A model generated the notes under the pieces. The model searched no databases, was not told the origin of the DNA, and saw nothing but the letters and a program-made list of their open reading frames with translations. From Saccharopolyspora spinosa NRRL 18395 (GTDB lineage: Bacteria; Actinomycetota; Actinomycetes; Mycobacteriales; Pseudonocardiaceae): a DNA stretch of 64,000 nt. Location of the stretch: the NCBI RefSeq assembly GCF_000194155.1, contig NZ_GL877878.1, positions 2,244,189-2,308,188 of the forward strand. The letters are read 5' to 3'. Of this stretch, positions 18,820 through 45,616 are shown one piece after another. The first letter of the stretch is position 1; the number at the start of each line of letters is the position of its first letter. Position numbers and translations under genes: made by a program.

Positions 18820-20025
18820 TTAGCCGCGCAGCTCGGCACGGGCCAGCGCGTTCTTGTGCACCTCGTCGGGCCCGTCGGCGAACCGGAGCGTGCGGATGCT
18901 GGCGTAGTCGCGCGCCAGCGGGAAGTCTTGCGACAGCCCGCCGGCACCGTGGGCTTGAATGGCCTTGTCGAGGATCCACTGCACGGTGGCGGGCGTGGCG
19001 ATCTTGATGGCCTGGATCTCGGTGTGAGCGCCCTTGTTGCCCACGGTGTCCATGAGCCAGGCGGTCTTGAGCACGAGGAGCCGCAGCTGCTCGATGCGGA
19101 CCCGGGACTCGGCGATCCAGTCGCGGATGACGCCCTGTTCGGCAAGCGGCTTGCCGAAGGCAACGCGGGTCTGCACCCGCTGGCACATCAGCTCGATGGC
19201 CTTCTCCGCGACGCCGATGGAGCGCATGCAGTGGTGGATGCGGCCCGGGCCGAGGCGAGCCTGCGCGATGGCGAAGCCCATCCCCTCCTCGCCGATCAGG
19301 TTCTGGACCGGGACCCGGACGTCGTGCAAGACGATCTCGGCGTGGCCGCCGTGGTCGTAGTCGTCGTACCCGTAGACCTTCATGCCGCGCCTGACCTCCA
19401 CGCCCGGGGTGTCGCGCGGCACGAGGATCATCGACTGCTGGCGATGGCGGTCGGCGTCTGGGTCGGTCTTGCCCATGACGATGAAGATCTGGGCGTTCGG
19501 GTTCATCGCGCCGGTGATCCACCACTTGTGGCCGTTGACGACGTACGTATCGCCGTCGCGCACGATCCGGGTGGCGATGTTGGTCGCGTCCGAGGAGGCG
19601 ACCTCGGGCTCGGTCATCGCGAACGCGCTGCGGATCCGGCCGTCGAGGAGCGGCTCGAGCCACAGGCTCCGCTGCTCGTCGGTGCCGAAGGTGTGCAGCA
19701 CCTCCATGTTGCCGGTGTCGGGAGCCGCGCAGTTGAGGACCGCCGGCGCGAGACGGCTCCGGCCACTGATCTCGGCGAGCGGGGCGTACTGGAGGTTGGT
19801 CAGTCCGGCTCCTTCCTCGCCCGGCAGGAAGAGGTTCCACAGCCCACGCTCGCGGGCCTCCGCGCGGAGCTCGTTGAGCACCGGCACCGTGTCCCACTCC
19901 CAGTGGTCGTCGCGAGCGTCTAGCTGGGCGTCGAACGTGGCCTCGGCTGGCTCGATGTGGGTGGACACGAGGTCGAGCATGCTGGCGCGCAACTCGTTGG
20001 TGCGGGCATCGAAAGCGAAGTCCAT
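18820..20025 (-). CDS. Acyl-CoA dehydrogenase, ACAD10/11-like
   Basis: A 401-aa FAD enzyme. Landmarks are the FAD/substrate segment SAFAMTEPEVASSDATNI, the KWWITGAMNPNAQIFIVMGKTDP strand, RVAFGKPLAEQGVIRDWIAE and a C-terminal LRFADGPDEVHKNALARAEL. The PDEVH variant and overall sequence are typical of ACAD10/ACAD11-type enzymes, whose genes are linked to APH-type kinases. In mammals and in the Pseudomonas levulinate pathway, such pairs process 4-hydroxyacyl-CoA through a phosphorylated intermediate. It is the last gene of the operon, 23 bases after the kinase gene. The specific substrate is inferred only. Confidence 0.88.
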   Translation of the reverse strand: MDFAFDARTNELRASMLDLVSTHIEPAEATFDAQLDARDDHWEWDTVPVLNELRAEARERGLWNLFLPGEEGAGLTNLQYAPLAEISGRSRLAPAVLNCAAPDTGNMEVLHTFGTDEQRSLWLEPLLDGRIRSAFAMTEPEVASSDATNIATRIVRDGDTYVVNGHKWWITGAMNPNAQIFIVMGKTDPDADRHRQQSMILVPRDTPGVEVRRGMKVYGYDDYDHGGHAEIVLHDVRVPVQNLIGEEGMGFAIAQARLGPGRIHHCMRSIGVAEKAIELMCQRVQTRVAFGKPLAEQGVIRDWIAESRVRIEQLRLLVLKTAWLMDTVGNKGAHTEIQAIKIATPATVQWILDKAIQAHGAGGLSQDFPLARDYASIRTLRFADGPDEVHKNALARAELRG

Positions 20026-20048
20026 CGTGTGCTCCTTCTGTGGAGTCT

Positions 20049-21104
20049 CTAGCTGAGGTCGAGGGCGTCGAGGCCAGTCGCGAGCAGGGGCTCGACGGCA
20101 TCGCCGATGCCCGCGAAGCCGTCGCCGACGGTCTGCCCGTGGAGGTATCGATAGTGGATGCCCTCGACGATGGCGGCGAGCTTGTACGCCGCCAGACCGA
20201 CGTAGAAGCCGATGTGGGACAGGTCCCGGTGGCTGGCCGCGTCGTACCGAGCGATGATCTCGTCCTCGCTCAGGTAGCCGGGCGCGATGGCGGAATTGGG
20301 CATGTCCGGCACCGTGCCGAAGCTGGCCATCCGCCCGTAGACGAGCATGAGGGCGAGGTCGGTCAGCGGGTCGCCGAGGGTGGCCATCTCCCAGTCGATC
20401 ACCGCACGGATGGTGTCGCCGGTCGCGTCGCTGTGCACCAGGGCGTTGTCGAGCCGGAAGTCGCCGTGGACGATCCCCGGGGACGAACCGACACGCTGGA
20501 CATCCTCGACCGTGGCGGCCAGCCGTAGCAGGAGCTCATCGGCCGCCGGCAGCGCACGGGTCCGGGAGGCGTCCATCTGCTTGCCCCATCGGCGTACCTG
20601 CCGGGCGAGGAAGCCGTCGGGCCGCCCGAACTCGGCCAGGCCGACGGTGGCGGACTGGACCTCGTGCAGCGCGGCCAGCACGTCCACGAGCTGCTCCGAG
20701 AGGGCGCGCACGCGCCCCGCTCCAAGGGGAGCCAGCTCACTGGCCCATCGATAGGGCGTGCCCTCCACTCGCTCCATCACGTAGAACGGCGCGCCGAGCA
20801 CGGCGTCGTCCGGGCAGATGGCGTAGGTGATCGGGACGGGCACCGGTGTGCCGCGAAGCGCCGTCATGACGGTGTACTCCCGGCCCATGTCGTGGGCCGT
20901 CGCCAGTACTTGGCCGAGTGGTGGGCGACGGATGATCCACGACGTGGTGCCGTCGGTCAGCTCGTAGGTCAGGTTCGACTTGCCGCCCGAGACGAGCCGG
21001 GCCGTGAGCTCCGCGTCGGCCGCGACACCGGGCACCTGCTCCCTGAACCACGGCGTCAGTGTGGTGAGGTCCAGCCCGGGCAGACCCGGCGAGGCCGCGC
21101 TCAT
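20049..21104 (-). CDS. APH-type phosphotransferase (4-hydroxyacyl-CoA kinase candidate)
   Basis: A 351-aa aminoglycoside-phosphotransferase-fold kinase. It has the nucleotide loop region (VSGGKSNLTYELTDG), the catalytic loop HGDFRLDN with Asp and Asn, and the Mg-binding VIDWEMATLGDPLTDLAL. Proteins of this subfamily (the APH part of ACAD11, LvaA of Pseudomonas) sit next to an acyl-CoA dehydrogenase and phosphorylate 4-hydroxyacyl-CoA, not antibiotics. Here the ACAD follows directly. ATG at 21104 overlaps the stop of the preceding HAD-containing ORF (ATGA). The frame extends 18 codons upstream without support. Confidence 0.85.
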   Translation of the reverse strand: MSAASPGLPGLDLTTLTPWFREQVPGVAADAELTARLVSGGKSNLTYELTDGTTSWIIRRPPLGQVLATAHDMGREYTVMTALRGTPVPVPITYAICPDDAVLGAPFYVMERVEGTPYRWASELAPLGAGRVRALSEQLVDVLAALHEVQSATVGLAEFGRPDGFLARQVRRWGKQMDASRTRALPAADELLLRLAATVEDVQRVGSSPGIVHGDFRLDNALVHSDATGDTIRAVIDWEMATLGDPLTDLALMLVYGRMASFGTVPDMPNSAIAPGYLSEDEIIARYDAASHRDLSHIGFYVGLAAYKLAAIVEGIHYRYLHGQTVGDGFAGIGDAVEPLLATGLDALDLS

Positions 21105-21586
21105 CGCCCGCTCCGGGCGCAGGCGCGGGCGGGGATGAGCTGCGTCGGGGCGGCCCACGTGTCCGCCTGGTCGGTGCGTTGGAAACCCTGCATTCCCACG
21201 GCGCGTGCTCCGTGGACGTTCGCCATGTCGTCGTCGACGAAGGCTGTGGCCGCCGGGGCGACGGCGACCCTGTGCAGGGCCAAGTCGTAGATCGAGGCGT
21301 CCGGCTTGCTCGGTCCCGCCTCTCCTGAGATCACTACGGCGTCGAAGGCATCGTCGAGCGGCAGGACGAGGAACCGTTCGTCGTCGGTGGTCTCCGAGGC
21401 GGCGACCTGCTCGGGCGTCGGCGGCCCGGCGTGCTCGAGGATGCCGAGCGCCTTGCCGGCGAGCTTCGCTACGTCGATCTCGGCTACGACGACGCGACAG
21501 CTCTCCGAGGCAAGCCTCGCGGCGATCGCACGGCTGATCCCCTGGGCAGCCCCTGTTCTGACCACGCCACTTCCCGGGGAGAGCAT
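21101..21586 (-). pseudogene. Chimeric SDR / HAD ORF (deletion fusion)
   Basis: A 161-codon frame that joins three pieces. The first about 35 residues are the nucleotide-binding start of a short-chain dehydrogenase (GVVRTGAAQGISRAIAARLA, CRVVVAEID). The next about 30 resemble the C-terminal tail of an SDR (ALGILEHAGPPTPEQVA, DERFLVLP). The rest is the C-terminal part of a HAD hydrolase (VVISGEAGPSKPDASIYDLAL with the motif III Lys, and FVDDDMANVHGARAVG with motif IV acids). The HAD nucleophile motif DxDxT is absent, so it cannot be catalytic. It starts TAATG on the stop of the upstream SDR and ends ATGA on the kinase, so coupling is kept. Confidence 0.65.
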
Positions 21587-45202: not shown

Positions 45203-45246
45203 GTGCTCAGACCGCGCGCTCGACCTCGCATTCGTGCGAGGGCGGC

Positions 45247-45471
45247 GTGTGCGGTACCTGTCGCTCGTTCTCCGTGAGGCCGTCAGGCGCGCCGGCATCG
45301 CCCCGCACAGTCAACCTTCTGTGCGCCTCTGGCCTTACGGCGGTCGCTACCGCCCGTCGGCTCATCGCCTCGGGCGAGGTCGACCTGGTCATCGCGGGTG
45401 GGGTGGAGTCGATGACCCGGACCGCCTGGGTGGTCGAGAAGCCGGACAAGGCGTGGGCTTACTGGCGATGA
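45247..45471 (+). pseudogene. Thiolase fragment
   Basis: About 50 codons match the thiolase core around the nucleophile: NLLCASGLTAVATARRLIASG, EVDLVIAGGVESMTRTAWVVEKP. Sequence before and after is unrelated, and a transposase fragment begins directly after. It was probably the next gene of the catabolic operon, destroyed by insertion and deletion. Confidence 0.7.
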
Positions 45472-45474
45472 TTG

Positions 45475-45616
45475 AGCACTCACGCCGCCGCATTCGCATC
45501 CTCGGCGCGACCCCACACCCGTCCGCCTCATGGGTGGTGCAGGCCGCCAAGAACTTGGTCATGAACCTCGAAGACGTTAGCGGCCGGGCCAGGTACATGA
45601 TCAGGGATCGGGACGG
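45475..45616 (+). pseudogene. Integrase-core transposase fragment
   Basis: The reading HSRRRIRILGATPHPSASWV, then QAAKNLVMNLED and ARYMIRDRDGK, matches the middle of rve-type transposases common in actinomycetes, including the second catalytic Asp in RDRD. It is truncated on both sides and marks the right edge of the catabolic island. Confidence 0.6.

Follow-up and report, generated by a model that had tools for sequence, protein, structure and literature searches.

A candidate branch of dialkylglycine decarboxylases with changed pocket residues beside an esterase, a Dpp importer and a Baeyer-Villiger monooxygenase in Saccharopolyspora spinosa

Introduction

Dialkylglycine decarboxylase (DGD) is known for its action on small dialkylglycines such as 2-aminoisobutyrate (Aib), a building block of fungal antibiotics. 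The gene of the Burkholderia enzyme has what we take to be a LysR-type regulator, and Fogle and Toney reportedly found in 2010 that W138 limits side-chain size in DGD. Ketone breakdown by a Baeyer-Villiger monooxygenase (BVMO) together with an esterase is the logic of AcmA/AcmB and MekA/MekB, which resemble the present locus in this pairing and in whose clusters no DGD is known to us. Here we analyze a window of 64,000 nucleotides from Saccharopolyspora spinosa NRRL 18395 (positions 2244189-2308188 on contig C1, genome 8.58 Mb), in which a DGD gene lies among genes for an Lrp regulator, a heroin esterase (HerE)-like esterase, a Dpp-type importer, a BVMO and beta-oxidation enzymes.

A yeast study (PMC10169451) describes DGD-dependent use of Aib and isovaline, proposes peptaibols as the source, and names Q52, W138, M141, S215, K272 and R406 as residues of DGD substrate subsites A-C. 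The aib cluster of Rhodococcus wratislaviensis resembles the window in that an actinobacterium devotes a gene cluster to one alpha,alpha-dialkyl amino acid, namely Aib, but it differs in that Aib is hydroxylated by a diiron monooxygenase independently of DGD, under a LysR-type regulator (PMC7782822). For 4-hydroxyacyl-CoAs, LvaA/LvaC and ACAD10/11 form a route (PMC11342911).

A sequence-only reading of the window had proposed a 26-kb catabolic block that imports Aib- or isovaline-rich peptides and passes them through DGD, the BVMO, the esterase and beta-oxidation. Every gene kind that it named was found by our Pfam and NCBIfam scans of the window's open reading frames, with the corrections given below. 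Its statement that no such cluster is described agrees with the open-access literature searched (which most subscription papers lie outside), where we found no account of this combination, no relevant description of DGD with Baeyer-Villiger or of heroin esterase with Baeyer-Villiger, and nothing joining DGD with Lrp.

Results

A decarboxylase branch with changed pocket residues

Among proteins of solved structure, the four best matches of the window DGD are all dialkylglycine decarboxylases (543-550 bits), and the next is alpha-amino-epsilon-caprolactam racemase at 242 bits. The match to the Burkholderia cepacia enzyme (PDB 1dgd/1d7r) is near full-length, at 550 bits. We aligned the window DGD with 81 canonical rows, consisting of the reference, 79 loci from genome scans and the paralogue from the same genome; one row is gapped, and the 80 ungapped rows were counted. 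Q52, M53, H139, D243, Q246, K272, T303, N394 and R406, all kept from the B. cepacia enzyme, are identical in the window DGD and in 80/80 canonical rows. In contrast, the window enzyme and its Labedella homolog share a set of replacements: Y138 where all 80 canonical rows have W, S141 where 77 have M, H143 where 79 have S, Q, G or T, A144 where 78 have G, T215 where 78 have S and two have T, T301 where all 80 have Y or F, and A396 where all 80 have V. Relative to B. cepacia DGD the window enzyme thus carries W138Y, M141S, S215T, Y301T and V396A, the first three of which fall on named subsite residues.

The same division is seen more widely. Among 120 listed DGD homologs (own included), Q52, K272 and R406 are conserved in every one, while position 138 is Y in 81 and W in 39. 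Thirty-seven of the 81 Y138 rows share T301 and A396 and form one clade with a FastTree support of 100; support for all Y138 rows jointly is 84. Judged by these alignments and trees, the island enzyme truly belongs with the dialkylglycine decarboxylases but on a distinct branch, for which an enlarged pocket is predicted, and the altered residues suggest a side chain that is larger than, or cyclic relative to, those of Aib and isovaline. Two candidate kinds of substrate were considered, methyldopa-like aromatic compounds and cycloleucine, and the evidence singles out neither.

The genome also encodes a second DGD (contig C1, 3400686-3401933), which is canonical and W138-type and has a divergent gene reading as LysR by eye. 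Use of Aib therefore does not require the island copy. Since the canonical pocket residues are changed and a canonical DGD is present elsewhere in the genome, the Aib- or isovaline-type substrate of the sequence-only reading is doubtful.

An Lrp regulator, an esterase and transporters accompany the branch

Unlike the B. cepacia gene, the window DGD is adjoined by an Lrp gene and has an esterase neighbour in its closest loci. An Lrp homolog (60-74% identity) adjoins DGD in all eight Y138-type loci read outside the window (L009, L095, L096, L097, L098, L110, L111 and L117), and Lrp lies within 2 kb of DGD in only 2 of the 80 canonical loci, some of them short, at 38-41% identity. DGD at E<=1e-190 was found in 5/390 Pseudonocardiaceae genomes, own included, and in a scan of Microbacteriaceae (398 genomes of the family, a subset of a larger group) only at L009, L110 and L111. 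In these three loci, from Labedella endophytica and presumably L. gwakjiensis and Glaciihabitans, DGD, Lrp and HerE lie together with an NhaC-type carrier, called by Pfam in L110 and L111 and by eye in L009. The closest DGD relatives are those of A. panacis (86%) and Streptomyces NPDC050433 (83%). As read from residues and gene order, the firmest novelty of the locus is this DGD branch, which is paired with Lrp, altered in its pocket residues and neighboured by an esterase.

Co-occurrence was also judged, indirectly, from protein lists of 120 entries each, by equal size of the longest contig, with shifted offsets as the null. The DGD and HerE lists have 16 such contig sizes in common (own included), whereas 120 shifted offsets gave 0.38 on average and never more than 2. 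Setting aside the own genome and a 2292-base contig that could not hold both genes leaves 14. A tree was built of 122 esterases, chosen by similarity to the window HerE in a way that favours its clade. The window esterase, 16 DGD-linked and 2 BVMO-linked esterases all fall within a single clade of 49 members (support 100), and the remaining 73 include none of them, a count made without P0260 (2292-base contig) and P0346 (1715), which are both among the 73 and come from contigs too short for both genes. In a label-shuffling test against the rest of the labelled esterases, the DGD-linked ones were not found to cluster (48 of 500 shuffles were as low).

The Dpp set of the window is complete, with an SBP_bac_5 protein, two permeases and two ATPases. 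The best solved relative of DppA is AgaA (6hlx), at a weak 130 bits, and peptide and nickel binders score lower. HerE at E<=1e-120 occurs in 2 of 315 Pseudonocardiaceae genomes, the own one and that presumed to be Amycolatopsis sulphurea (G216, locus L132). There HerE (70% identity) is directly followed by DppA-B-C-D-F (64-79% identity to the window Dpp) on one strand, whereas the window HerE and Dpp genes face one another across a transposase. The place of DGD is taken in G216 by HyuA, HyuB, a class I/II aminotransferase and a thiamine pyrophosphate (TPP) enzyme, with a short-chain dehydrogenase/reductase (SDR) and GntR also upstream of HerE. The aminotransferase and TPP enzyme could equal in two steps what DGD does in one, and with HyuA/HyuB they possibly form a lactam or hydantoin route. 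Within 2168-9267 of L132, HyuA is nearest to caprolactamase alpha (530 bits, cut-off 1000).

A transporter thus adjoins HerE in all four loci read without a nearby BVMO, the NhaC type in L009, L110 and L111 and Dpp in L132. For this reason the esterase is more likely, on gene order, to act before DGD than after the BVMO, the position that the sequence-only reading had given it. HerE appears from these neighbourhoods to be a hub, beside DGD-Lrp in some loci and in a row with Dpp in another, and import, hydrolysis and DGD are probably one route.

On a linear plasmid of Streptomyces cathayae (L117, 9392-11762), a Y138-type DGD is flanked by an Lrp gene and, on its opposite side, by another Lrp-like stretch. 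In Nocardioides lianchengensis (L080, 60-17222), a W138-type DGD lies near an apparent molybdenum hydroxylase trio and a HyuA/HyuB-like pair, both read by eye.

A Baeyer-Villiger module split in two

Type I BVMOs carry the fingerprint FxGxxxHxxxW(P/D). The window BVMO has two Rossmann GxGxxG motifs, at residues 25 and 193, and its fingerprint region (residues 168-179) is YTGTLVHTSRWR, in which G, H and W are kept, with Y for F and R for P/D. Among 120 listed homologs (own included) this Y is found in 30 and the R in 8, and the nearest relatives vary at the last position too.

Searched singly, the BVMO, the aldehyde dehydrogenase (ALDH) and the IclR regulator each find their seven best plasmid matches at a single locus that is carried by the same set of seven Rhodococcus plasmids, with identities of 58-60%, 63-66% and 40-41%, respectively. 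By homology, ALDH and IclR (22.5-24.8 kb) therefore belong with the BVMO, although 14 kb separate them from it, and the module is split by the DGD-FadAB-Lrp-HerE-Dpp block. The three plasmids that were read (NZ_CP034156, NZ_CP106984 and NZ_CP142144) carry two adjacent acyl-CoA dehydrogenases (ACADs), an IclR-type regulator, BVMO, ALDH, a CoA transferase and a hydratase. The window resembles them in BVMO, ALDH, IclR and ACADb (45-46%) and in having ACADs divergent from the BVMO side. It differs in that ALDH and IclR lie ~14 kb from the BVMO with the DGD-HerE-Dpp block between, and in that similarity is low for ACADc (30-34%), the CoA transferase (31%) and the hydratase (31-34%). Nor do ACADb and the CoA transferase point specifically to the BVMO locus, as both have better plasmid matches elsewhere; that of ACADb (47%; Streptomyces sp. 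SAT1, NZ_CP016082 28613-33352) lies ~3 kb from an IclR match (38%). The best solved relatives of ACADb, 4x28 and 6wy9/6wy8, are presumably steroid-type heteromeric ACADs. A comparable gene set is found on an Actibacterium plasmid (L120), where the gene immediately ahead of the BVMO encodes an HSL-family hydrolase.

The BVMO is uncommon. It was found at E<=1e-185 in 6/390 Pseudonocardiaceae genomes, with identity above 60% in two, own and G413 (63%); at E<=1e-200 among 394 class-level genomes in the own genome alone; and at E<=1e-150 among 61 relatives in the own genome and G038 (44%). In the BVMO stretches read from G413, G348 and G324, no other window gene was found at E<=1e-8.

The locus lies on a putative tRNA-Leu island

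Of 21 other genomes of the genus, G005 has the best match to the left-flank protein, and its DNA is 95.7% identical to the window as far as 16121. The match is gone from 16122, 14 bases beyond the 3' end of tRNA-Leu(CAA), and resumes at ~55940-55995. Between the matching flanks lie 35-39 kb of other DNA in G005 and ~40 kb in the window; the G005 insert matches the window only in a 609-base stretch of an IS630-type gene (70%) and in a copy of the tRNA 3' end (81%). Six same-genus genomes were compared over 20 kb; in four of them the match stops 0-15 bases beyond the tRNA, and in the other two it already stops ~65 bases short of it. Because the flanks match while the inserts differ, and because matches in the genus stop around the tRNA, the region is most likely, from these comparisons, part of a tRNA-Leu genomic island at ~16.1-55.9 kb that is absent from the near relative G005. 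No second copy of the tRNA-Leu 3' end, with up to 5 mismatches, was found within the window.

The site itself (window 16032-16125; L128/L129 of G005, joined position 38163) looks like an insertion hot spot, and the different DNA inserted in G005 has an imperfect copy of the tRNA 3' end. The right part of the island, window 45780-55300, holds a sortase, a transposase, a DyP-type peroxidase and a right-handed beta-helix protein, with no evident catabolic tie.

The strain-specific DNA is larger than the 26-kb block of the sequence-only reading, and transposase debris also lies inside, at ~24.8-25.7 kb (presumably ISAzo13-like, by eye) and 32484-33509, bracketing DGD-FadA-FadB-Lrp-HerE. The wider island edges rule out the reported block as a whole unit, and a single operon for all listed genes is ruled out by alternating strands and the intervening transposase remains.

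Other features of the island

The island also holds an LvaA/LvaC-type unit (all features are collected in Table 1). ACADa matches ACAD11 (440 bits) and a bacterial protein (438 bits) best, the next kind scoring 153. The kinase beside it, which the sequence-only reading had not listed, has two bacterial relatives at 178 and 174 bits and matches ACAD11 at 159 bits. Across 18820-21736 the parts of mammalian ACAD10 (dehydrogenase, kinase and HAD remnant) are thus seen as separate bacterial genes, one of them decayed. Like the LvaA/LvaC and ACAD10/ACAD11 route, the window has a kinase and ACAD pair, at 18.8-21.2 kb; unlike ACAD10/ACAD11, its genes are separate, HAD is only a remnant, and membership in the DGD route is not clear. 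The ACADa-kinase unit would suit a gamma-hydroxy acid from a lactone, but its only tie to DGD or the BVMO is its position. The SDR that had been listed is present, though not as an intact gene, as its frame ends early.

Table 1. Features of the island in window coordinates
Feature	Coordinates	Strand	Basis or remark
tRNA-Leu(CAA)	16032..16108	+	left edge of variable island
ACADa, acyl-CoA dehydrogenase of ACAD11/LvaC kind	18820..20025	-	Pfam, structure-sequence match
APH-type kinase of ACAD11/LvaA kind (predicted 4-hydroxyacyl-CoA kinase)	20049..21158	-	Pfam
Decayed frame, SDR start fused to HAD-hydrolase remnant	21101..21736	-	domain scan
SDR, 3' end disrupted (pseudogene or sequence error)	21642..22316	-	frame ends early, ~21642
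ALDH	22515..23981	+	Pfam; best plasmid matches beside BVMO on seven Rhodococcus plasmids
IclR regulator	23893..24762	+	Pfam; best plasmid matches beside BVMO on same seven plasmids
Broken transposase remains	24800..25700	+	by eye; tested open reading frame without Pfam match
DGD of Y138 'TA' branch	25807..27153	+	Pfam, structure-sequence match, alignment, tree
Thiolase FadA (acetyl-CoA C-acetyltransferase PRK08242, above cut-off)	27183..28394	+	Pfam/NCBIfam
FadB-like hydratase/3-hydroxyacyl-CoA dehydrogenase (start uncertain)	28391..30550	+	Pfam/NCBIfam
Lrp/AsnC regulator, divergent from esterase	30577..31080	-	Pfam
HerE-like HSL-family esterase	31256..32218	+	Abhydrolase_3; 436 bits to heroin esterase 1lzk, start set by that match
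IS630-type transposase or remnant, between esterase and Dpp genes	32484..33509	+	Pfam
DppF ATPase (start approximate)	33506..34300	-	Pfam
DppD ATPase	34281..35294	-	Pfam
DppC permease (start approximate)	35269..36120	-	Pfam
DppB permease	36135..37070	-	Pfam
DppA family-5 solute-binding protein	37145..38752	-	Pfam
BVMO, first gene of presumed Dpp transcription unit	38837..40519	-	Pfam; 84-base gap to DppA
ACADb	40932..42143	+	Pfam; best solved relatives 4x28, 6wy9/6wy8
ACADc, partner ACAD (start approximate)	42200..43198	+	Pfam
CoA-transferase family III	43195..44370	+	Pfam/NCBIfam
Enoyl-CoA hydratase	44367..45158	+	Pfam

Discussion

The gene identities, the DGD branch with its altered residues, and the linkages of DGD-Lrp-esterase, esterase-Dpp and BVMO-ALDH-IclR elsewhere were observed directly. 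From these sequences we infer the substrates, the regulator targets, the order of esterase before DGD and a common intermediate of DGD and BVMO. The reading that we tentatively adopt, at not quite an even chance, is one pathway on the tRNA-Leu island, acting on a compound that derives from an amino acid and has a quaternary alpha carbon. Dpp would import this compound, and the HerE-like esterase would split an ester, amide or lactone to give the free amino acid. The remodelled DGD would decarboxylate it and transfer its amino group to pyruvate, yielding a ketone, CO2 and alanine. It is plausible that the BVMO takes this ketone, which it would convert to an ester or lactone, and ALDH, the CoA transferase, the ACADs, hydratase, FadB and FadA would bring the pieces into beta-oxidation. 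Lrp would sense an amino acid and control DGD and the esterase, while IclR would control the BVMO/beta-oxidation half.

The joining of the two halves is supported by the BVMO gene lying on the same strand as DppA, 84 bases before it, and by base composition, with a shared lower G+C of 0.605-0.631 from BVMO through DppC (35-41 kb), compared with 0.65-0.67 in DppD/F. The linked pairs form a chain, from BVMO-DppA in the window to HerE-Dpp in G216 and HerE-DGD-Lrp in Microbacteriaceae. The BVMO and HerE lists also have contigs of 11853 and 14520 bases in common (matched on size), at ranks 3/5 and 6/9. When each list is cut to its top 10 entries (own left out), 2 exact contig matches result, a number that none of 6000 shifted offsets gives. 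One Amycolatopsis orientalis chromosome (9490992 bases) has both the DGD branch (80%) and the BVMO branch (71%), which we likewise count for one pathway, although both genes are rare in the family (DGD 5/390, BVMO 2/390, the own genome included in both).

Several observations weigh against a single pathway. The full BVMO and HerE lists give 4 contig matches (own, 11853, 14520 and 1715) against a mean of 0.5 and a maximum of 4 at one offset, so that the full-list count alone is not beyond chance. The size of the A. orientalis chromosome is matched by none of the 120 listed esterases, and neither the BVMO nor the HerE list includes the contigs that carry the nearest relatives of the DGD, those of A. 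panacis and Streptomyces NPDC050433. The Rhodococcus BVMO stretches read, which have ALDH, IclR and ACADs, lack DGD and Dpp (L115 and L116 by tblastn, L119 by gene table), and Labedella, which has DGD-Lrp-HerE, has no BVMO at E<=1e-50; neither set therefore needs the other. The DGD block has transposase remains on both sides and may therefore lie within the BVMO module by accident. The sequence-only reading is partly supported, in that other genomes link DGD, the esterase and Dpp as neighbours. The co-occurrence that it proposed to look for among DGD, BVMO, esterase and Dpp was found as linked pairs, and the full gene set in no other genome searched.

These points lend a substantial probability, somewhat below even, to the alternative that the tRNA island and transposons gathered modules with unrelated substrates: DGD-Lrp-HerE(-Dpp) for amino-acid scavenging, BVMO-ALDH-ACAD for a cyclic or branched ketone, and an LvaA/LvaC-type unit for a 4-hydroxyacid. 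HerE-Dpp without DGD or BVMO in 19.9 kb of G216, the transposase remains between units, the different insert at the same tRNA site in G005, and two regulators from different families (IclR and Lrp) agree with such stacking. The chain of linked pairs, the high-ranking BVMO-HerE contig matches and the two branches together in A. orientalis speak instead for the single pathway. The order of the sequence-only reading, in which the esterase acts after the BVMO on its ester or lactone and Dpp imports Aib- or isovaline-rich, peptaibol-like peptides, is improbable. Its chemistry is sound, HSL-family hydrolases near a BVMO are also found in Rhodococcus (L116) and Actibacterium (L120), and the yeast proposal of peptaibols as a source would fit it. 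However, the L116 hydrolases are merely 28% and 38% identical to HerE, HerE accompanies DGD plus a carrier in loci for which searches found no BVMO, and Dpp in one where none lies within the 19.9 kb read, and the pocket and the canonical paralogue point away from Aib. It is very improbable that the Y138 branch no longer acts on dialkylglycines and is an ordinary or racemising class-III aminotransferase. Tyr or Phe does stand at position 138 in 6/6 other class-III enzymes of the same genome that were aligned, but all six lack the Q52 and M53 that the window enzyme keeps, and every racemase and transaminase of solved structure matches its sequence far less well than DGD does. An acetone or butanone pathway of the AcmAB/MekAB type was considered and not adopted.

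The Y138/Lrp branch may be an unrecognised family of decarboxylases for bulky or cyclic alpha-quaternary amino acids, which the island would combine with import, substrate release by the esterase and a BVMO in a complete, undescribed pathway that would run from an imported alpha-quaternary amino-acid derivative through a ketone and an ester or lactone to acyl-CoA, a proposal that we regard as speculative and rather unlikely as a whole. Alpha-quaternary amino acids resist breakdown, and such enzymes could serve the production of amines, ketones and lactones. A DGD branch with a changed pocket, its own regulator family and an esterase neighbour in its nearest members suggests that a further natural alpha-quaternary amino acid is consumed by bacteria.

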